From the IMG/VR virus record IMGVR_UViG_3300008262_002531, positions 1 through 21,191 of that record: DNA of 21,191 nt; one strand, given 5' to 3'. Positions 5,230 through 20,735 of this stretch are shown piece by piece; within the stretch, counting starts at the first letter, position 1, and every line of letters begins with the position of its first letter. The position numbers and the translations under genes are program-made. The DNA is from a virus. The notes under the pieces were generated by a model. That model was not told where the DNA came from, searched no databases, and worked only from the letters and a program-made list of their open reading frames with translations.

Positions 5230-5664
5230 TTAAAAGCTATTGTTGAACCAGCCTATTTTGCGACCTTCAGCAATACGACGATCATGTTCTTCAACTGAAC
5301 TAGGATAACGCCAAGCCCATAGAGCCACGCAGGCCATGAAGAGCGCAGTAGAAATTATCCCTATGGGCTTAACACCACTACTCCACATTAAGACTAAACT
5401 TAAACTCATCATGGCAAGCATAAAGTATTTCATCTTTTGAGGAAATACTCGCTTCTCACCCCAGTTGGTTAAGAACAGACCAAACAGCTTGTGATTGTAC
5501 AACCAGGCATGCATCTTAGGCGATCCTTTGGCAAAGCAATAGGCCGCAAAGACCACAAACGGACTGTAGGGTATGCCGGGTGTTACCACTCCGACATACG
5601 CCATACCTAGACTAAGAAAGCCTAAGATTTTCCAAAATAACTTTTTTAAATGAATTGTAACCAT
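5230..5664 (-). CDS. DUF454 (YbaN-like) inner-membrane protein
   Basis: 144 residues with at least three hydrophobic segments (about 10-30, 35-46 and 80-118). The pattern VTPGIPYSPFVVFAAYCFAKGSPKMHAWLYNHKLFG, followed by NWGEKRVFPQKMK, matches the DUF454/YbaN family of bacterial inner-membrane proteins (usually about 120-130 residues). The family function is not established. The start overlaps the end of the HNH gene by 19 nt, with GAGG upstream of the ATG, so it is read from the same sigma70 promoter. Such a gene in a phage is probably host-acquired and may alter the host envelope. Confidence 0.85.
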   Translation of the reverse strand: MVTIHLKKLFWKILGFLSLGMAYVGVVTPGIPYSPFVVFAAYCFAKGSPKMHAWLYNHKLFGLFLTNWGEKRVFPQKMKYFMLAMMSLSLVLMWSSGVKPIGIISTALFMACVALWAWRYPSSVEEHDRRIAEGRKIGWFNNSF

Positions 5665-6158
5665 TCTTCAAACCTCAATGCGAAGCCTTGCTTCTTACGC
5701 TTATTTACAAGTTCGAAGTAGTCTGGCTTGTAAGGTTTGATTTTAGGCTTATGTGTATGGGTCTTATCTGCCTTGTCAGCATTACATGGGCCACACGCGG
5801 TAACACAATTTTCCCAAACAGTCTTTCCACCTTTTGAAATTGGATGTACATGGTCTAGCGTAGAATCTTTTCTTTCTACACTAATTCCGCAATATTGACA
5901 TTGTCCGCTATCTCGTAGGTAAACATTGCCGCGACTAAAGCGGACTGCATGTTTTGGCTTCATGTAGTCTTGCAACATGATTACACTAGGAACAGGAGTT
6001 TCCCAACGTGCGGATCTTACAATCCAATTTTCATGCCAAAATAATACATTGGCCTTGTCTAAGACCATATATCGGATAGCTTCTTGCCAATTAATAGTAC
6101 TTAATGGCAAGTAGCTGACTGGTTGACCATCAGCGTTCAAGACGAGGGTGTCTGACAT
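5646..6158 (-). CDS. HNH endonuclease
   Basis: 170 residues from the ATG at 6158, preceded by AAGGAAG; a longer in-frame start lacks support. The N-terminal half (VLNADGQPVSYLPLSTINWQ and following) is characteristic of the bacterial HNH family whose members begin V-L-N-A-x-x-x-P. The nuclease core has a zinc knuckle CQYC (87-90), LDHVHPISKGGKTVWEN with Asp102-His103 and Asn117, and ACGPCN (121-126). It binds a divalent metal and cuts DNA. This family is often a free-standing nuclease rather than intron-borne, and no intron is visible. It has its own strong sigma70-type promoter with an inverted repeat, unlike the late genes around it. Confidence 0.92.
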   Translation of the reverse strand: MSDTLVLNADGQPVSYLPLSTINWQEAIRYMVLDKANVLFWHENWIVRSARWETPVPSVIMLQDYMKPKHAVRFSRGNVYLRDSGQCQYCGISVERKDSTLDHVHPISKGGKTVWENCVTACGPCNADKADKTHTHKPKIKPYKPDYFELVNKRKKQGFALRFEEWLQFI

Positions 6159-6195
6159 TTTACTTCCTTTTCGATTGTGTTTACAGACCCAACCT

Positions 6196-6218
6196 ATGAG
6201 CTTATATTGTAAGCTCAT
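6196..6218 (-). repeat. Perfect 9-bp inverted repeat over the -10 element
   Basis: The arms are ATGAGCTTA and TAAGCTCAT, separated by five bases, CAATA. The -10 hexamer TACAAT of the HNH promoter begins in the last bases of the first arm, and the symmetry centre is near 6207. The position fits an operator for a dimeric repressor. It could also form a hairpin at the 5' end of a transcript reading through from upstream. Confidence 0.6.
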
Positions 6219-15052: not shown

Positions 15053-15355
15053 TTAGTATGACTCCTTTTTAATTAAGAGAAACAAATGTTTCTTTTCTTT
15101 TGGTTCCCACCATTTACCTAATTCTCCACAACGATCTTCTCGTTGTGTGCTGCCAATACGATTGATTCCACAGAGATCGTATTTGCCTTTTACACTTTTT
15201 GCACCAACTACAGGATTTGGTTCTGCGTGTGTTGGTTTAAAACTTTTTTTACAGTAGTAGGCATACTCGCTAAACGGTCCGTGCGAAAGCATACCACCTA
15301 TAGTTCTAAAACTATGTTTACAATCTTTGCACAACAATTCACTCTGTTCTTTCAT
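15053..15355 (-). CDS. Zinc-ribbon-like conserved phage protein
   Basis: 100 residues with five Cys: CKDC (9-12), YYC near 35, LCGI near 62 and RCGEL near 76. The spacing fits a zinc-stabilised small fold. The C-terminus KWWEPKEKKHLFLLIKK resembles a tail I recall in several marine phage proteins. It overlaps the end of the previous gene by 17 nt with only a weak ribosome binding site, consistent with translational coupling. Function unknown. Confidence 0.7.
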   Translation of the reverse strand: MKEQSELLCKDCKHSFRTIGGMLSHGPFSEYAYYCKKSFKPTHAEPNPVVGAKSVKGKYDLCGINRIGSTQREDRCGELGKWWEPKEKKHLFLLIKKESY

Positions 15356-15809
15356 TATGTTCTTTCGTTAGTTCACAAATCAATAAAAATCGTTCGTAGG
15401 CTTTACGAACACTAGGATTCTCTAATAACTTCTCAGCTTCAATTGCCATGGCTTTTACGCCTTCTTCAGCAATCTCCCTTGCACTAGGAATCTCTACATA
15501 GTAACGATCGCTACCAAACGCCTTGGCTAAATTTTCCCAAGCCTTACGTTGCTTTTCAGTAATAGGCTTATTGTGTGGTCGCATCTCACTGGCCTTTTGA
15601 ACAGCCTTGCTGATAGCATCTTCGGCAACACGACCTGCGGCAATCATAGGAGCATAGGCAGGATCAATATTAAAACGGCGACTACTACCACCAGGATACA
15701 CCTGCACTAAATGACTGCCTTTTGGAAAACTATCCAAATACTCGTTATCATATTCTGCAACAGGAATATAACGGCGGCCTTGTTTTTTGTAGAAGATTGT
15801 TTTGCTCAT
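15339..15809 (-). CDS. Conserved phage protein with shared ENP-V-KAY C-terminal motif
   Basis: 156 residues. The N-terminal part (about 1-52) is beta-rich, with SKTIFYKKQGRRYIPVAEYD and GSHLVQVYPGGSSRRFNI. It is followed by helices, and the C-terminus LLENPSVRKAYERFLLICEL is shared with the protein at 17398-17760. The ATG at 15809 stands 5 nt after a perfect TATAAT -10 box and has no ribosome binding site, so the first gene of this early unit is probably read from a leaderless mRNA. Function unknown; I recall homologous patterns in T4-like marine phages. Confidence 0.78.
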   Translation of the reverse strand: MSKTIFYKKQGRRYIPVAEYDNEYLDSFPKGSHLVQVYPGGSSRRFNIDPAYAPMIAAGRVAEDAISKAVQKASEMRPHNKPITEKQRKAWENLAKAFGSDRYYVEIPSAREIAEEGVKAMAIEAEKLLENPSVRKAYERFLLICELTKEHNERTE

Positions 15810-15814
15810 GAGTT

Positions 15815-15843
15815 ATTATAGCAGAAGAATTACTTGTTGTCAA
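15815..15843 (-). promoter_or_regulatory. Full-consensus sigma70 promoter with extended -10
   Basis: On the minus strand TTGACA (15838-15843), exactly 17 bp, then TATAAT (15815-15820) preceded by TG-C, an extended -10. Both hexamers are perfect. It should be among the strongest early promoters of the phage. The predicted start falls on or next to the ATG at 15809. It heads the run of five genes down to 14133. Confidence 0.88.
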
Positions 15844-16195
15844 CTTGAGAATTGCCCCATTTAAGAGTCCACCAGGTATAATCAATATCTTTAAGTTTGG
15901 CTACAATCGCATATTGGTATCCGTAATTGGCAACATCTGCCATCCTATGCCATTCTGGAGTATCCACTGCTCGTTCCATTACCCACTCGCCCATTTCGCT
16001 GTTTTGCCAATCTAGTAACGGCTGTGCGGCATACAAGTCTGGATCTTCTACATCACCCATTCGAAAACGATGTACAACGACAGTATGTATTTCGTGTACC
16101 TTATCACCAAATAACATATACTTGCTGATAAAACGTTTTTCTTTTGGCTCTGCTAAAGGGCCTGTGTCCATCCAGTTTTGATCATTATTGGCCAA
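15830..16195 (-). CDS. Conserved phage protein ending in WWTLKW
   Basis: 121 residues if started at TTG 16195, which has GGAG 8 nt upstream; the alternative ATG at 16171 (113 residues) has no ribosome binding site. Features are FISKYMLFGDKVHEIHTVVVHRFRMGDVEDPDLYAAQPLLDW (about 22-63), TPEWHRMADVANYGYQYAIVAKLKDID, and the end YTWWTLKWG. I recall close relatives throughout T4-like marine phages with no known function. The C-terminal W-x-[LM]-[RK]-W resembles the small proteins upstream, though the rest of the chain differs. It overlaps the nucleotidase gene by 11 nt. Confidence 0.75.
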   Translation of the reverse strand: MANNDQNWMDTGPLAEPKEKRFISKYMLFGDKVHEIHTVVVHRFRMGDVEDPDLYAAQPLLDWQNSEMGEWVMERAVDTPEWHRMADVANYGYQYAIVAKLKDIDYTWWTLKWGNSQVDNK

Positions 16196-16676
16196 GCTCT
16201 TTCTCCAGCCAAACTTTGCAGTCGGTCCAGTTTTTGTAGAGGTGGGCTCGTCCTTTGTTTTCTATCCAATCTTCGTTGTTTCCAACGCGATCATCGATGA
16301 GGATATCTCCTGGCTGTTTAATATGTTGCCACTTGTCATGACTGTAAGGTCCAAAGAAAACAGGAATGCCTGGAAAGTATTTGTCTGCCCACCAAACTTT
16401 ATCATTAAATGCCCATTGCATATCATTGTTCCTTGGTACTGCTGTTAAGAAGGCAACAACAGTTTCTGGATGTGCTTGTTGGTAAGACAGTATCCACTGC
16501 ACCAACTCAACAGCACCTTCCTTAAGAGGCAAGTCTCTATACAATCTGGGATTGTCTCTAAGATGTTGCCATTCATGTTCAGGAAAACGTTCTCCTTCAT
16601 GCTTACTGCCTAATACTTTTCTAGCATAACTTTTAAAGTCTGCTACAACATCATCCATGTCTATATAAATGTTCAT
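16185..16676 (-). CDS. 5'(3')-deoxyribonucleotidase-like HAD phosphatase
   Basis: 163 residues. IDMDDVVADF (5-14) holds the catalytic Asp6 and Asp8. FLTAVP near 97 is HAD motif II and GDILIDDRVGNNEDW near 125 is motif IV. This arrangement fits the NT5C family of phage and bacterial pyrimidine 5'-nucleotidases, which dephosphorylate dUMP or dTMP. It acts in the cytosol and would adjust nucleotide pools for phage replication. GGAAAT precedes the ATG. It follows the small-protein array and precedes a conserved hypothetical gene. Confidence 0.87.
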   Translation of the reverse strand: MNIYIDMDDVVADFKSYARKVLGSKHEGERFPEHEWQHLRDNPRLYRDLPLKEGAVELVQWILSYQQAHPETVVAFLTAVPRNNDMQWAFNDKVWWADKYFPGIPVFFGPYSHDKWQHIKQPGDILIDDRVGNNEDWIENKGRAHLYKNWTDCKVWLEKELGQ

Positions 16677-16677
16677 T

Positions 16678-16929
16678 TTATTTCCAATATTTTATTTGAA
16701 AAAGCATAAATTTCTTAGGATCTGTGACTTTGTAGTTAGCTGTGTAGTTTCCTTCACCGTCTGTTTCCATTTGAAATCCATATTTCTGTTCAGCCCAATA
16801 ATGAACGCTAGGTCGACTCATACCATAATCACCTTTGTACTGTTCTATGTATTCTGGGCGCATATTATGTATGGCTTGCCAATATCTGTTACGTTCTTGT
16901 TTAAATGTTTCATCAGCATGATTGGTCAT
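16678..16929 (-). CDS. Small array protein ending in FMLFQIKYW
   Basis: 83 residues from the ATG at 16929, which overlaps the previous stop as ATGA. The N-terminal half is a charged helix (ETFKQERNRYWQAIHNM). The C-terminal half, HYWAEQKYGFQMET then ANYKVTDPKKFMLFQIKYW, follows the array plan: W...G, aromatic strands, then Asp/Lys residues and a hydrophobic x-x-[KR]-[YW] end. This is the most diverged member of the array. Function unknown. Confidence 0.72.
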   Translation of the reverse strand: MTNHADETFKQERNRYWQAIHNMRPEYIEQYKGDYGMSRPSVHYWAEQKYGFQMETDGEGNYTANYKVTDPKKFMLFQIKYWK

Positions 16930-17210
16930 TCTGTTCCCCAGCGCATGATAAACCAATTACGTTCAGCATCTGATTTTAGATATATTATAGTTCTATATTG
17001 ATCACGAGCCCATGCCCACCGTGCATTGCGAGGTTCGTTGATTGTTACAAGTTCTCTCCAAATGTCTACTTCAACACTAGGACCAAGTGTTTCCCAGCAC
17101 CATTGTCGCACTAAATCAAATCTTGCACCTTGCCAGTTCCAGCCAAAGTCTACACCATATTTGAATTCCCCGTAACCGGTCATTCTTTTATCTAATTTTT
17201 TTATTCTCAT
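16926..17210 (-). CDS. Small array protein ending in WFIMRW
   Basis: 94 residues from the ATG at 17210, overlapping the upstream stop as ATGA; upstream in-frame starts are possible but less natural. FGWNWQGARFDLVRQWCWETLG (about 22-43) and RWAWARDQYRTIIYLKSDAERNWFIMRWG define the fold. It aligns well with the C-terminal part of the P-loop protein at 17989: W-C-x-x-T-x-G, then R-W, an aromatic strand and DR-x-WF-x-[LM]-RW. The GGGGA in its last codons probably serves as ribosome binding site for the next gene. Function unknown. Confidence 0.75.
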   Translation of the reverse strand: MRIKKLDKRMTGYGEFKYGVDFGWNWQGARFDLVRQWCWETLGPSVEVDIWRELVTINEPRNARWAWARDQYRTIIYLKSDAERNWFIMRWGTE

Positions 17211-17401
17211 GACCATTTTAGCACAAACCATGTGCCTTTTTTATTATCTAAAAATTCAAGCACCTGACTACCTGTATCTGATTTGATTGAATATTCTTGT
17301 TCTAACCAGTCATAGATGTTATTGGGTCCACCTTCCCATTTGACATGATCATAGTAATGGTCAACAAGTTTATCCCAATAAGGGGATTTTTCAATTATCA
17401 T
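17207..17401 (-). CDS. Small array protein ending in WFVLKW
   Basis: 64 residues, the shortest array member. It has PYWDKLVDHYYDHVKWEGGP, then IYDWLEQEYSIKS and KKGTWFVLKWS. The start overlaps the previous stop as ATGA, with GGAG about 10 nt upstream, and the stop overlaps the next start as ATGA. It consists of little more than the shared module. Function unknown. Confidence 0.75.
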   Translation of the reverse strand: MIIEKSPYWDKLVDHYYDHVKWEGGPNNIYDWLEQEYSIKSDTGSQVLEFLDNKKGTWFVLKWS

Positions 17402-17760
17402 TTACGGCATAACTCCAATAGCATCAAATATTTCATATAGGCCTTTTGCACAGCAGGGTTTTCGATTCGTACACGTTCATCCTTGCGTAGCATTGCAACT
17501 ATTTCATTGTTATGTCGATTCTTCTGCTCTTTATCTTCGTACCATGAAATCATATCTTCTAGTTCTTGCAGTCGATCCACAGGCATGGTAACATCAACAC
17601 AGTCTACTTCTTCTACATCAAGGGTATGCTGATAAACTGCCGCATCACTGGCATCTATGTTCCATAGATTGGTATATTTTCTCATAGGAGGAATCCTACG
17701 CATCTTACGATGGCTAGGGTGGACATGCATATCAAATTTTTGAAAGAACTTACTGCTCAT
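17398..17760 (-). CDS. Conserved phage protein with shared ENP-V-KAY C-terminal motif
   Basis: 120 residues from the ATG at 17760, with AAGG upstream; longer in-frame starts would overlap the zinc-ribbon gene. The N-terminal half is basic (HPSHRKMRRIPPMRKYTNLW). The middle is acidic with VTMPVDRLQELEDMISWYED. The C-terminus, VRIENPAVQKAYMKYLMLLEL, matches that of the protein at 15339-15809, so the two share a helical C-terminal module on different bodies. It interrupts the small-protein array. Function unknown. Confidence 0.77.
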   Translation of the reverse strand: MSSKFFQKFDMHVHPSHRKMRRIPPMRKYTNLWNIDASDAAVYQHTLDVEEVDCVDVTMPVDRLQELEDMISWYEDKEQKNRHNNEIVAMLRKDERVRIENPAVQKAYMKYLMLLELCRK

Positions 17761-17770
17761 TGTATTTGCC

Positions 17771-17992
17771 TTAAAAGTATTCATCTGGTTCAGCAAAGTA
17801 ATCCCACCCCTTGCCTCCCAATGCTTTCCAATTTTCCCATTTCGCTTCTTCTTCCTTACAAGCCTCGGGCATGGCATCACTGCCTACTATACATTCACAT
17901 TGGGCGCAAAAGTAGTTCATACCATTAGTTGGTTCGTCATAGTAAGCTACGCCTCCGCAGGGCATGACCATGTAGTCTGTGTAATCAATCAC
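17771..17992 (-). CDS. Zinc-ribbon-like protein with GTG start
   Basis: 73 residues. I chose GTG 17992 because AAGGTGG lies 5 nt upstream and the codon overlaps the upstream stop as GTGA. The Cys pattern is PCGG, CAQCEC and ACKEE, giving a likely four-Cys zinc site in a small domain. GGKGWDYF follows near the end. I recall the start IDYTDYMVMPCGGVAYYD from other T4-like phages. Function unknown; nucleic-acid binding is possible. Confidence 0.75.
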   Translation of the reverse strand: MIDYTDYMVMPCGGVAYYDEPTNGMNYFCAQCECIVGSDAMPEACKEEEAKWENWKALGGKGWDYFAEPDEYF

Positions 17993-18411
17993 GAGTTCCA
18001 CCTTAATACAAACCAATCGCGGTCTTTTAATTCTTTAAACCAAAACTTGCGATTGTTAGTATACCATCGTTGCAAGGGTTCTGGTGTAAGATTTTTAGTT
18101 TCAGACCATATGTTGCCTGTACTACCAAAAGTATCCAAACACCATGTTTCCATATCAATCCAGCTACCACCAACAGGTTCTACCGTGTAGTAACGTGACC
18201 CATATATCGTACCTTCGCTCAATACAAGATCCTGAATGGGTTTTACCCATATATCATCAAACATTCGCTTGTAAGCGGTCATTTGACTATTAAGTATACT
18301 CTTACCTACACCTCGGCCTGACATCATAACTTTAAACTCGCGGCCTTTGTGTTGTTTAATTGTATCCAAGGCACGTTGTTGCCAAGGCTCTAGTTCTGCT
18401 GATTCACTCAC
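17989..18411 (-). CDS. P-loop protein fused to array module, ends in WFVLRW
   Basis: 140 residues from GTG 18411, chosen by the GTGA overlap and AAGGTGG upstream. The N-terminal 45 residues, EPWQQRALDTIKQHKGREFK then MMSGRGVGKS (29-38), resemble the Walker A region of terminase-type ATPases. No Walker B with acidic pair follows. Instead the rest is an array-type module: RYYTVEPVGGSWIDMETWCLDTFG (about 74-97), RWYTNNRKFWFKELKDRDWFVLRW. It could be a nucleotide-binding switch, a terminase antagonist or a remnant. The LRW codons supply the next gene's ribosome binding site. Confidence 0.75.
   Translation of the reverse strand: MSESAELEPWQQRALDTIKQHKGREFKVMMSGRGVGKSILNSQMTAYKRMFDDIWVKPIQDLVLSEGTIYGSRYYTVEPVGGSWIDMETWCLDTFGSTGNIWSETKNLTPEPLQRWYTNNRKFWFKELKDRDWFVLRWNS
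17998..18004 (-). promoter_or_regulatory. Ribosome binding site made of Leu-Arg-Trp codons
   Basis: AAGGTGG on the minus strand lies within TTA-AGG-TGG, the Leu-Arg-Trp codons near the end of the P-loop gene, and is 5 nt from the GTG of the zinc-ribbon gene. It decides that start over the upstream TTG and GTG codons in frame. Confidence 0.75.
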
Positions 18412-18701
18412 GCTAGCCACCTTAGTTTAAACCACATAGCATCGTCATCGTTTTCAAAGATAAAGTCAGAGCGATTTCGCTCGTGGGCTCCTTTGACATT
18501 TTTATCAACCCATGTGTGCATCTCTTTAAGATTGTCCATAGTCACTGGCCAAGGTAGAATAACACGTTGCCATCCTAGACTTTCTAACATGCTCCACAGT
18601 ATCTCTCTGTCCACATGATTGGCAAGTTCCTGTGCCTTTTGTTCTAGTATTTGGTTCTGGAGGTCGCCTGTACGATCTGTCAGCAGTTTCTTTTTAAGCA
18701 T
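18408..18701 (-). CDS. Small array protein ending in MWFKLRW
   Basis: 97 residues from ATG 18701, 6 nt after AAAAAGG; an ATG two codons earlier would touch that ribosome binding site. The basic start MLKKKLLTDRTGDLQNQILEQK leads to REILWSMLESLGWQRVILPWPV and MHTWVDKNVKG, then DFIFENDDDAMWFKLRWLA. It is a clear array member with W, G and F/W-x-LRW in order. The CTA-AGG-TGG codons serve as ribosome binding site for the P-loop gene. Function unknown. Confidence 0.75.
   Translation of the reverse strand: MLKKKLLTDRTGDLQNQILEQKAQELANHVDREILWSMLESLGWQRVILPWPVTMDNLKEMHTWVDKNVKGAHERNRSDFIFENDDDAMWFKLRWLA
18417..18423 (-). promoter_or_regulatory. Second ribosome binding site made of Leu-Arg-Trp codons
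   Basis: AAGGTGG on the minus strand lies in CTA-AGG-TGG, the Leu-Arg-Trp codons of the gene ending at 18408, 5 nt before the GTG start of the P-loop gene. The layout is identical to that at 17998-18004. Confidence 0.75.
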
Positions 18702-18924
18702 CGTCATCCTTTTTACAGCGTTTGCTAATTTCGTCGCTCCAGCGAAGTATGAACCATTCTCTGTGTGCTTCTTTTTTAAAACTCCACAAGCGTTCTGTCA
18801 TGCTCATACCTACACCTTCAGCTGATGCCCACTCCTGCATTTCTAACAGCAGATCTTCAGGCAGTTCTCCCCTGTCAAAAGCAAGGCCTGGCAACCTAAA
18901 AGGTCCTACTTCACAGTTTTCCAT
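18694..18924 (-). CDS. Small array protein with WFILRW and acidic tail
   Basis: 76 residues from ATG 18924, which lies 14 nt inside the upstream gene; a TTG three codons earlier is an alternative. It reads GPFRLPGLAFDRGELPEDLL, then EMQEWASAEGVGMSMTERLW and FKKEAHREWFILRW, followed by an extra tail SDEISKRCKKDDDA not found in the other members. Its last codons carry the ribosome binding site AAAAAGG of the next gene. Function unknown. Confidence 0.72.
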   Translation of the reverse strand: MENCEVGPFRLPGLAFDRGELPEDLLLEMQEWASAEGVGMSMTERLWSFKKEAHREWFILRWSDEISKRCKKDDDA

Positions 18925-19174
18925 TGTTACCAATCACTTCACTAAATTTCATTAAAAACATTGTACGTTTATTTTGACTGTAAAAATCTAAATGTATTTG
19001 ATAATCACTATAGCCACCGTCAGGTTTGGGTATCCATGATTTGTGTTCGCGGACAGTAAACCCTAATACACGTTTCATTTTGTCACGCAACATGAAAACA
19101 GTCTTAGGGTATTCTTCTTGCAAGGCTAGACGTATAGTCTGCCATTGTTCAACGGTCAATACTACGGGTTTCAT
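18911..19174 (-). CDS. Small array protein ending in MFLMKF
   Basis: 87 residues. It reads TVEQWQTIRLALQEEYPKTV, then RDKMKRVLGFTVREHKSWI and YQIHLDFYSQNKRTMFLMKFSEVI. The array plan is kept, but the final Trp is Phe and a short tail follows, as in the member at 20433. It starts 26 nt inside the SGNH hydrolase gene with no strong ribosome binding site, so translation is probably coupled. Function unknown. Confidence 0.72.
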   Translation of the reverse strand: MKPVVLTVEQWQTIRLALQEEYPKTVFMLRDKMKRVLGFTVREHKSWIPKPDGGYSDYQIHLDFYSQNKRTMFLMKFSEVIGNNGKL

Positions 19175-19571
19175 TGGCTATGCTTTTATATCCGTTGTAT
19201 GTAGGATGAACACCGTCTTTACCAAGCTCGTGTTTGCGAGAGTCAATAATAACATCGTTGAAGTGCGCCGCAACTTTTTCCACGTTAGCACGTTTAACGT
19301 CTTTGATTGCAGGCATGATCCAATAAACACGATCAGCTTTGACTAAGTGACGCAGAGTTCTAAGTTCTTCATAAGTGTTGATGCTTTTGTAATCATTCGA
19401 ACCTAGACTGATAATCACAGTCTTGGCCTGTGTATTACCGTTGGTGTGAAGCACATGCCTGTTAACGTAGTCATAACTGTTGATACCACTCTTAGCATAG
19501 GTAATACATTCTTTACGTATTTGTCCTACACCTACTGCAAGGCTATCGCCTAGAATTAAACATTCTAACAT
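19149..19571 (-). CDS. SGNH/GDSL-family hydrolase
   Basis: 140 residues, short for the family. All four blocks are present: LGDSLAVGVG with the nucleophile Ser10, AKSGIN with Gly29, SLGSND with Asn59, and KDGVHPTYNGY with Asp119 and His122. It should be an esterase or acetylhydrolase acting on a small ester, sugar or lipid. There is no signal peptide, so a cytosolic role is likely unless it is carried in the particle. The start overlaps the upstream gene as TAATG. Its place among early small genes suggests modification of host metabolites or glycans early in infection; the substrate cannot be told. Confidence 0.9.
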   Translation of the reverse strand: MLECLILGDSLAVGVGQIRKECITYAKSGINSYDYVNRHVLHTNGNTQAKTVIISLGSNDYKSINTYEELRTLRHLVKADRVYWIMPAIKDVKRANVEKVAAHFNDVIIDSRKHELGKDGVHPTYNGYKSIANETRSIDR

Positions 19572-19852
19572 TATTTCATTTCCTCTATATCAAATTGCCA
19601 CTGATCTTTATCCCAATGCCTGCTGTCATAGATTTTCCCATTGACAGCATAGCCCAATAGACCCAACCAAAGGTCTAGTCCTGCATGATCACATCCATGT
19701 GTGATTCTTAAATCAAAAGCGACAATGTCATCGCTTTTCATAATCTGCACTTCCCAAAACTTATGTTTAAATGGTGTAGCACCATGCCAGCAGTTGATGC
19801 TGGCAAATCTATCCCACCAAGGGTTTTCAATTGTAAACTTTATATTGATCAT
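19571..19852 (-). CDS. Conserved phage hypothetical protein (MINIKFTIENPW)
   Basis: 93 residues from ATG 19852, overlapping the previous stop as ATGA. It is rich in Trp and beta strands: FTIENPWWDRF, CWHGATPFKHKFWEVQIM, IVAFDLRITHGCDHAGLDLWLGLLGY and KIYDSRHWDKDQWQFDIEE. I recall this sequence type as widely conserved in T4-like marine and freshwater phages, without known function. The compact single domain is probably cytosolic. Confidence 0.82.
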   Translation of the reverse strand: MINIKFTIENPWWDRFASINCWHGATPFKHKFWEVQIMKSDDIVAFDLRITHGCDHAGLDLWLGLLGYAVNGKIYDSRHWDKDQWQFDIEEMK

Positions 19853-20217
19853 ATAATGGCCCAAATGATAAACAGATAAGTCAAATTGTGGGCCAGTTGA
19901 TCGGCACCTAACCAAGCCCAAAACTTAGGATGCTCGACAGTATAGTTATTTTGTTTGTTGATGTTTATCTTGGACCAGTCAATGTGATAGTGAAATATAA
20001 AGTCTAGTGCGCCAAAGAATACTGCTGTTTCAAAGTCCAAGTTAGTTACAGCAAACAGTACAATGGCTGTGCCCAAGCCTTGTTTTAGACTGTGTTTGAC
20101 ACCTCGCCAATCAAGGTAAGTGCCTTTCCATGCTACTTCTTCTGCTGTTTGGTTAACAAAGTCAATGTACCAATGTTTGATAAACAGTAGTGCTAAAATT
20201 AAAAGAATATGTTCCAT
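19849..20217 (-). CDS. DUF3307-like membrane protein
   Basis: 122 residues from ATG 20217; start and upstream stop overlap as TAATG and GGGAGAG precedes the start. Several hydrophobic segments occur (about 2-18, 50-75 and 108-122). Polar residues match the DUF3307 plan: DFVNQT near 20, HSLKQG near 42, FIFHYHIDWSK near 75 and WLGADQLAHNLTYL near 103, with conserved His and Asp. DUF3307 proteins are small inner-membrane proteins of unknown role, frequent in phages and plasmids. A function at the host membrane is likely. Confidence 0.82.
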   Translation of the reverse strand: MEHILLILALLFIKHWYIDFVNQTAEEVAWKGTYLDWRGVKHSLKQGLGTAIVLFAVTNLDFETAVFFGALDFIFHYHIDWSKININKQNNYTVEHPKFWAWLGADQLAHNLTYLFIIWAII

Positions 20218-20390
20218 TAAACTCTCCCGGACCAATGACGATATTCACGTTTTAGCCAGTATTTGTATTTGTTAAAATAGTGTTGGACATCATAGTCGCA
20301 ACGAATACCCAAACTGTCTAGTTCGTCTTTATGTTCCATCCACTTTTCCTGCAGCCAATTGCGGAAGCCTTTTGTACGAGCTGTTGTCAT
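20217..20390 (-). CDS. Small basic protein, first gene behind a strong promoter
   Basis: 57 residues, translated directly from the sequence: it starts MTTARTKGFRNWLQEKWMEH, has LGIRCDYDVQHYFN, and ends REYRHWSGRV. AAAGGAG lies 5 nt before the ATG, an excellent ribosome binding site, and a near-consensus sigma70 promoter is 33 nt upstream. It overlaps the next gene as TAATG. The chain is helical, basic and Trp-rich; binding to nucleic acid or to a host protein is possible. I do not recognise a family. Its position as first gene of an early transcript is typical of host-takeover proteins. Confidence 0.8.
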   Translation of the reverse strand: MTTARTKGFRNWLQEKWMEHKDELDSLGIRCDYDVQHYFNKYKYWLKREYRHWSGRV

Positions 20391-20423
20391 GTCAGCTCCT
20401 TTCTTACAGATTGCGATGTCGTT

Positions 20424-20452
20424 AGTATATAATTATTGACAGCGTCTGTCAA
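20424..20452 (-). promoter_or_regulatory. Strong sigma70-type promoter for the small early gene array
   Basis: On the minus strand TTGACA (20447-20452), exactly 17 bp, then TATACT (20424-20429). Predicted start near 20417, giving a leader of about 27 nt with AAAGGAG. The -35 element lies within the last codons of the gene upstream and inside a perfect inverted repeat. Confidence 0.82.
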
Positions 20453-20735
20453 CACTTTCGATTATGATGTCCATCCAACGCATGGCAAATAGTGTGGCTT
20501 TTTTTGGACTGCGAATGTTTACAGTCCACCATTTGTCATACTTGCCACCTTCATAGATAAACCAATCCTTGTACTGTTCTCCTAGGTATTGATTGCACCA
20601 TGCGTGGATATCATCTCTTTGGGCTGGATCTTTTTGAATTTTATAGTAGGCAAAGTTGCTCAAATACTCGCGTACCATCCGGGCAAAATTGGGATTGCTT
20701 TCACCCGGCAGTGAACGTTCATCATGCTCGATCAT
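20433..20735 (-). CDS. Small array protein ending in LFAMRW plus tail
   Basis: 100 residues. It has FARMVREYLSNFAYYKIQKD, DIHAWCNQYLGEQYKDWFIYEGG (about 42-64) and WWTVNIRSPKKATLFAMRW (about 69-87), then a tail DIIIESVDRRCQ. W-C-x-x-x-x-G followed by aromatic strands and F-x-MRW matches the array members at 16926 and 17989 well, so it belongs to the family although seven other genes separate it from the main cluster. Its last codons also hold the -35 box and the inverted repeat of the next promoter. It overlaps the previous gene by 14 nt. Confidence 0.78.
   Translation of the reverse strand: MIEHDERSLPGESNPNFARMVREYLSNFAYYKIQKDPAQRDDIHAWCNQYLGEQYKDWFIYEGGKYDKWWTVNIRSPKKATLFAMRWMDIIIESVDRRCQ
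20436..20452 (-). repeat. Perfect 7-bp inverted repeat over the -35 box
   Basis: TTGACAGACGCTGTCAA: arms TTGACAG and CTGTCAA around ACG. The first arm contains the complete -35 hexamer. It is a plausible operator for a dimeric repressor, and the same bases also encode the C-terminus of the gene at 20433-20735. Confidence 0.65.

Follow-up and report, generated by a model that had tools for sequence, protein, structure and literature searches.

The window studied here is a viral contig fragment of 21 kb (21,191 nucleotides; IMG/VR record IMGVR_UViG_3300008262_002531, positions 1 to 21,191) that carries, on its minus strand, an array of small genes whose products end in related aromatic motifs. 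Profile comparisons and structure predictions indicate a common C-terminal module of about 65 residues, with a predicted order of strand, helix, strand, strand, helix (b-a-b-b-a) and a closing helix that ends in FxLRW or FxLKW. The module recurs in long gene arrays of jumbo phages, and the DNA that encodes its last residues is partly explained by the translation of the next gene. We give about an even chance to the reading that these are early phage proteins in which one conserved scaffold, through many different binding surfaces, would help the phage to take over the host and counter its defences.

The shared C-terminal module

An earlier note had listed nine small proteins with variants of this ending, and all nine endings are present where it placed them, as is the W-C-x(4)-G that it described in 16926, 17989 and 20433 (genes are named by their lower window coordinate). 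Among 43 non-overlapping open reading frames (ORFs), eight have the strict motif [FW]x[LM][RK][WF] no more than 15 residues from the C-terminus, against a mean of 0.055 and a maximum of two in 2000 residue shuffles. One of the eight, an HNH-type protein at 5646-6218, is a chance hit unrelated to the module, and 16926 is absent from the set, being masked by an overlapping ORF. Several ORF starts were over-extended, and better ones were taken from relatives and from overlaps between stop and start codons; the GTG start of 17989, for example, rests on its relatives and on a GTGA overlap. With these corrections, the features of the array are:

15815..15843, minus strand: sigma-70 promoter-like site TTGACA-17-TATAAT (12/12, TG-extended) at the 3' end of 15830
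15830..16195, minus strand: unproven member ending in WWTLKW; its 3' tail overlaps the perfect sigma-70 promoter
16678..16929, minus strand: possible divergent module protein, LFQIKYW; start corrected to ATG 16929
16926..17210, minus strand: module protein, WFIMRW, with a WCWETLG helix; start corrected to ATG 17210, which overlaps 17207 as ATGA
17207..17401, minus strand: module protein of 64 aa, WFVLKW; its end, AAATGGTCATGA, is the following gene's start
17989..18411, minus strand: module protein with a P-loop-like N-terminal head, WFVLRW; start corrected to GTG 18411, MSESAELEPWQQ
18408..18707, minus strand: module protein, WFKLRW, with a long N-terminal helix and the b-a-b-b-a module
18409..18424, minus strand: dual-coding junction, in which the Leu-Arg-Trp codons are the Shine-Dalgarno sequence (TAAGGTGG), followed by GTGA
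18694..18924, minus strand: module protein, WFILRW; start corrected to ATG 18924
18911..19174, minus strand: probable divergent module protein, MFLMKF
20424..20452, minus strand: sigma-70 promoter-like site TTGACA-17-TATACT (11/12) at the 3' end of 20433
20433..20735, minus strand: module protein, LFAMRW, with a WCNQYLG helix; its 3' tail overlaps the sigma-70 promoter

Membership was assessed with leave-family-out hidden Markov models (HMMs), from which every relative detectable by phmmer had been removed, and with 5000 decoys. Six window proteins were strongly linked, with E-values of 4e-11 (17989), 7e-11 (18408), 1e-9 (16926 and 20433), 1e-6 (17207) and 7e-6 (18694). The scores of 18911 (0.018) and 16678 (0.12) are weak, yet both outscore all 5000 decoys. 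The protein that the earlier note had considered least certain, 15830, was unlinked (E-value 2.1, with seven decoys scoring better) and reached 0.02-0.06 against other models. Since the proteins had first been chosen by the motif, the test was redone with the motif region removed: 16926 (1.4e-6), 17989 (2e-6), 18408 (0.0013) and 20433 (0.004) were still linked, and the masked profiles gave no link for 17207, 18694, 18911, 16678 and 15830. Single-family profiles recover most other families at E-values of 1e-4 to 1e-9. Window membership is firm for four proteins, good for two, probable or possible for two and unproven for 15830.

Structure predictions were compared for two of the nine proteins, and their C-terminal folds agree. 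The AlphaFold model of 18408 has a predicted local distance difference test (pLDDT) score of 86.7 overall and 91-96 in the module, and that of 17989 has 87-95 in a b-a-b-b-a module apart from a weak loop; in both, the motif sits in the last helix. Across the family the conserved columns are W, F, L and W together with R/K, and they include no invariant group of polar residues of the kind that would point to an active site; isoelectric points range from 4.1 to 11.4 with a median of about 6. These conserved core aromatics with a single basic residue, set beside a widely varying charge, point to a constant core and a variable surface. Searches of the PDB by fold and by sequence returned nothing significant (best structural E-value 0.55 for a well-predicted model), and when 55-78 module members were compared at 0.01 with Pfam, PHROG and PADLOC, no family matched two or more of them. 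The three BFVD matches with E-values below 0.001 are all uncharacterised proteins of uncultured phages.

With the 17989 protein as query, we found nine loci in viral contigs of up to 383 kb. The same arrays recur there, though individual families are retained, missing or exchanged from locus to locus. At least 119 further stretches matched a degenerate nucleotide version of DAM[WM]Fx[LM][RK]W, and iterated profiles brought the total to about 700 non-redundant module proteins at 127 loci. The module was found in 20 of 20 viral records, a figure that is not a prevalence because the records were picked for a motif-matching locus; a T4-type Gp23 capsid was present in 10 of the 14 records searched. 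Some giant phages have over 150 distinct versions of the module. A contig of 561 kb (IMGVR_UViG_3300046616_000314, hereafter G012) has 220 module ORFs at E-values below 0.01, against none in reversed decoys, standing in runs of up to 29; by a greedy gene call the module accounts for 166 of about 986 genes, or up to a sixth. This contig and the profile links between families bear out the proposal that a single module was duplicated many times.

Cultured relatives were reached only by profiles built from jumbo-phage members. Sinorhizobium phage Phosso, the closest cultured relative of G012 by capsid (81% identical major capsid protein), has 46 copies, Atu_ph07 five, PA5oct three and CBB one. The same profile search found no module in RaK2, 121Q or phage G, nor in T4, HTVC008M, P-SSM2 or S-CRM01; an early profile search of eight cultured phages came back empty. 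In Phosso (PV764938), proteins annotated as hypothetical only (for example XYS97177, XYS97193, XYS97194 and XYS97208) have the same module, with a best E-value of 2.6e-13, and are encoded in arrays of 80-110 aa genes like those of the window, from which they are distant in sequence, with no tblastn match. Single-protein tblastn searches and a concatenate of 37 families gave no convincing match in 50,697 phage records; one weak tblastn match, in Vibrio phage LV6, was dropped and had no profile match. When contigs of bacterial and archaeal genomes were scanned for the motif DNA, 22 chance matches turned up, none of them a convincing module by HMM.

Phage G and Escherichia phage 121Q have been described as carrying over 30 similar genes in tandem, read as the result of duplication (Hua et al. 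2017, PMC5646251). These arrays likewise consist of one small gene family repeated in tandem in a jumbo phage. We considered whether they are the same family, and found no module match in NC_025447 or NC_023719, with Phosso and G012 as positive controls; the phage G and 121Q arrays thus represent a different family. Literature searches found no description of the module family. Tandem small-gene arrays in jumbo phages were already known; what appears to be new is the present family, with its scale and its dual-coding junction.

Protein ends that double as expression signals

For 349 of 502 module genes (69%), the start of the following ORF lies within the stop codon. The usual 3' end is TTG AGG TGG TCA TGA, which reads as Leu-Arg-Trp-Ser-stop and also contains the Shine-Dalgarno sequence and the start codon of the next gene. 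Within the window, the 3' end of 18408, CTAAGGTGGCTAGCGTGA, holds the Shine-Dalgarno sequence of the following gene, 17989, whose GTG start overlaps its stop codon. The arginine codon of the motif is AGG in 78% of the genes with an overlapping next start, compared with 30% of those without a following start (p = 7e-9), against a background of 14%. Lysine takes the place of arginine in 27% of the coupled genes and in most of G012; the residue pattern is therefore also held at the protein level.

Promoter-like sequences are concentrated on the array strand, with 28 near-perfect sigma-70 sites compared with six on the opposite strand and an expected number of 2.3. The site at the end of 15830 has counterparts at the same place in the related loci L005, L007 and L008, and that at the end of 20433 has one in L001. 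In these two proteins and their orthologues in the four loci, the tails that follow the motif (VDNK, VDRR) encode in frame the -35 TTGACA of the next promoter, so that, judged from the sequence, these -35 boxes would be another case of a protein end that doubles as an expression signal. From general T4 biology, sigma-70 promoters point to early transcription. Because the promoters are of consensus sigma-70 type, the arrays are probably early genes, and the suggestion that the array is early agrees with how its transcription units look.

Selection, N-terminal heads and possible functions

The array had also been proposed to be one of diversification, but the rates of substitution do not support a rapid one. 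Where dS could be estimated, the ratio of nonsynonymous to synonymous substitution (dN/dS) in window orthologues is about 0.1-0.3, and the neighbouring genes are alike; many dS values are saturated, so that dN/dS is a rough measure. Such purifying selection suggests an old, stabilised set of paralogues and not a fast arms race. Within G012, best paralogues are just 30-50% identical, which also argues that they are old, and the best paralogue is adjacent in 21 of 220 cases, compared with five by chance.

The picture of one module fused to different heads holds in part. At least 25 residues precede the module in 80 of the about 700 members (about 11%), some with capsid or P-loop fragments, but about 89% are headless, and what had appeared as differing N-termini is in these the module itself with a divergent first strand and loop. 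Six of 66 heads scanned match the Gp23 capsid protein (best E-values 1.5e-11 in PHROG and 2.3e-11 in Pfam), one of them, in L080, scoring 44.2 bits against PF07068, which has a curated cut-off of 24.4. The heads are homologous to T4 Gp23 (PF07068, phrog_138) over a fragment of 25-45 residues, without the capsid fold, and align to about positions 95-131 of T4 gp23, a stretch that we take to be its Gol region. A review (PMC3014915) gives the Gol region as 29 residues long and as the best-conserved part of gp23, and assigns to it both the binding of EF-Tu and the triggering of Lit. No Gp23 head occurs in the window.

As had been noted, the 17989 protein carries a P-loop-like head, but this is not a nucleoside triphosphatase domain: the head of about 50 aa is not predicted to fold (pLDDT 44-62) and is too small for a Rossmann-type ATPase domain with Walker B, and the P-loop is lost in the L005, L007 and L008 orthologues. 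A terminase origin of the P-loop heads is unsupported. For the 17989 head itself the comparisons favour no one source: it matches TerL weakly (phrog_2 0.024, phrog_4914 0.053), and against the relatives' own TerL z is at most 4.3, in an alignment away from Walker A. Three P-loop heads resemble the Walker A of the relatives' DnaB-type helicase (z 3.8-8.4). One module subfamily, KYKFSRAKWY, is found with both kinds of head.

Several other arrangements were seen among the relatives. A recurring head, RRFLxxHxCEx...YxxRYDPD, is found with looser variants at L054:905-1369, L116:2775-3227, L065:6075-6491, L011:4812-5255 and L033:6661-7107, and has no convincing Pfam or PHROG match. In proteins of about 210 aa from L143, L144 and L149, the stretch before the module resembles a second, diverged module copy. 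Short ORFs (117-165 aa) that match only the first 50 or so positions of the Gp23 profile occur at G008:162706-162855, G015:64518-64652 and G011:160527-160604, the last of them inside a module array.

A scaffold for many partners is suggested by the constant core and variable surface, the missing active-site signature, the early promoters, the coupled translation and the long-term retention of the genes. The core would serve as a rigid scaffold, and the variable surface would fit every paralogue to its own partner during infection, for instance a host enzyme, a defence protein or a protein of a competing phage; coupled translation would keep the set expressed together early in infection, and members with a Gol-region head may be decoys or competitors for whatever recognises that part of the capsid. 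Four points weigh against this. The binding role rests on the logic of a scaffold and not on any interface; no member has an established function, partner or expression; in the window, the link depends on the motif for two members, is weak for two others and is missing for one; and a dN/dS this low does not speak for an arms race. A wider version is tentative and in our view unlikely: aquatic and soil phages with T4-type capsids would build an effector repertoire, up to a sixth of their genes, from one scaffold. As every gene holds its neighbour's translation start signal, they could slot in new members that are expressed at once, some of which would bait immune sensors with the phage's own capsid or helicase-like fragments.

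Unlikely, too, is that the module is an RRM- or ferredoxin-like half-fold that binds RNA or DNA, each paralogue regulating particular transcripts. Its order of strands and helices resembles that of these small domains, RRM-like proteins turn up among the PDB matches, though weakly and without support, one member weakly matches NCBP3 (0.0057), an RNA-binding cap protein, and the motif conserves a basic residue. However, the module lacks the terminal strand and a significant PDB match, no conserved aromatic pair like those of ribonucleoprotein (RNP) motifs was seen on its strands, and the median isoelectric point means that most members are not basic. We consider it distinctly unlikely that the arrays are non-adaptive cassettes, in which each 3' end carries the next ribosome-binding site, insertions and duplications are expressed automatically and members need no job of their own. 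The frequency of start-stop overlaps, usually of a TTG-AGG-TGG-TC-ATGA-like form, the excess of adjacent best paralogues and the precedent of the phage G and 121Q arrays (PMC5646251) all favour such growth, but window orthologues are individually retained under purifying selection and the G012 paralogues are old. Cassette growth may still account for how the arrays formed.

Interference with co-infecting phages, the capsid and helicase-like fragments acting as dominant negatives against assembly or replication, would draw on the six heads with Gp23 N-terminal fragments and the three with DnaB-type P-loops; we hold it to be improbable, given how few members have heads, the lack of a Gp23 head in the window and the danger that a 40-residue capsid fragment would pose to the phage's own capsid. 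That the motif is mainly a translation signal, its RW the product of an in-frame AGGTGG Shine-Dalgarno sequence in otherwise unrelated proteins, is largely refuted and retains very little probability. It would explain the dependence of the AGG bias on a downstream start and the loss of links for 17207 and 18694 once the motif is masked, but not the lysine in coupled genes, where no Shine-Dalgarno sequence results, the conservation of F, L and W as well, the four window families linked without the motif or the same fold order in two families. Equally improbable, in our judgement, is a role as minor virion components or as internal proteins that enter the cell with the DNA: jumbo phages have very many genes of unknown function and T4-like capsids co-occur with the module, but the arrays have sigma-70 type promoters, and the PA5oct record attaches its electrospray tandem mass spectrometry (ESI-MS/MS) note to other proteins but not to the three members.

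If the scaffold reading is correct, a substantial fraction of the genes without annotation in jumbo T4-like phages would be explained by one protein family and receive a first testable function, which a cultured carrier, Phosso on Sinorhizobium meliloti, puts within reach of experiment. The junctions offer a clear case of a conserved protein C-terminus that doubles as the next gene's ribosome-binding site, and with it a plausible route of array growth. Capsid-fragment heads would allow a natural test of whether a phage turns parts of its proteins into decoys against sensors such as Lit.

Other genes of the window

Inside the module array, the minus-strand gene at 19149-19571 encodes an SGNH/GDS hydrolase-like protein that starts LILGDSLAVGVG and has no NCBIfam match. 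Two array neighbours, 15339-15809 and 17398-17880 (both minus strand), share a different C-terminal tail, (E)NP[AS]V[RQ]KAY..[FY]L...EL, which suggests another small paralogue set; the 17398 protein matches phrog_1796. The sole large plus-strand gene of the window, at 1039-2259, encodes a 5-aminolevulinate synthase (TIGR01821, E-value 5e-171), and aquatic phages are known to encode AlaS (PMC11480375).

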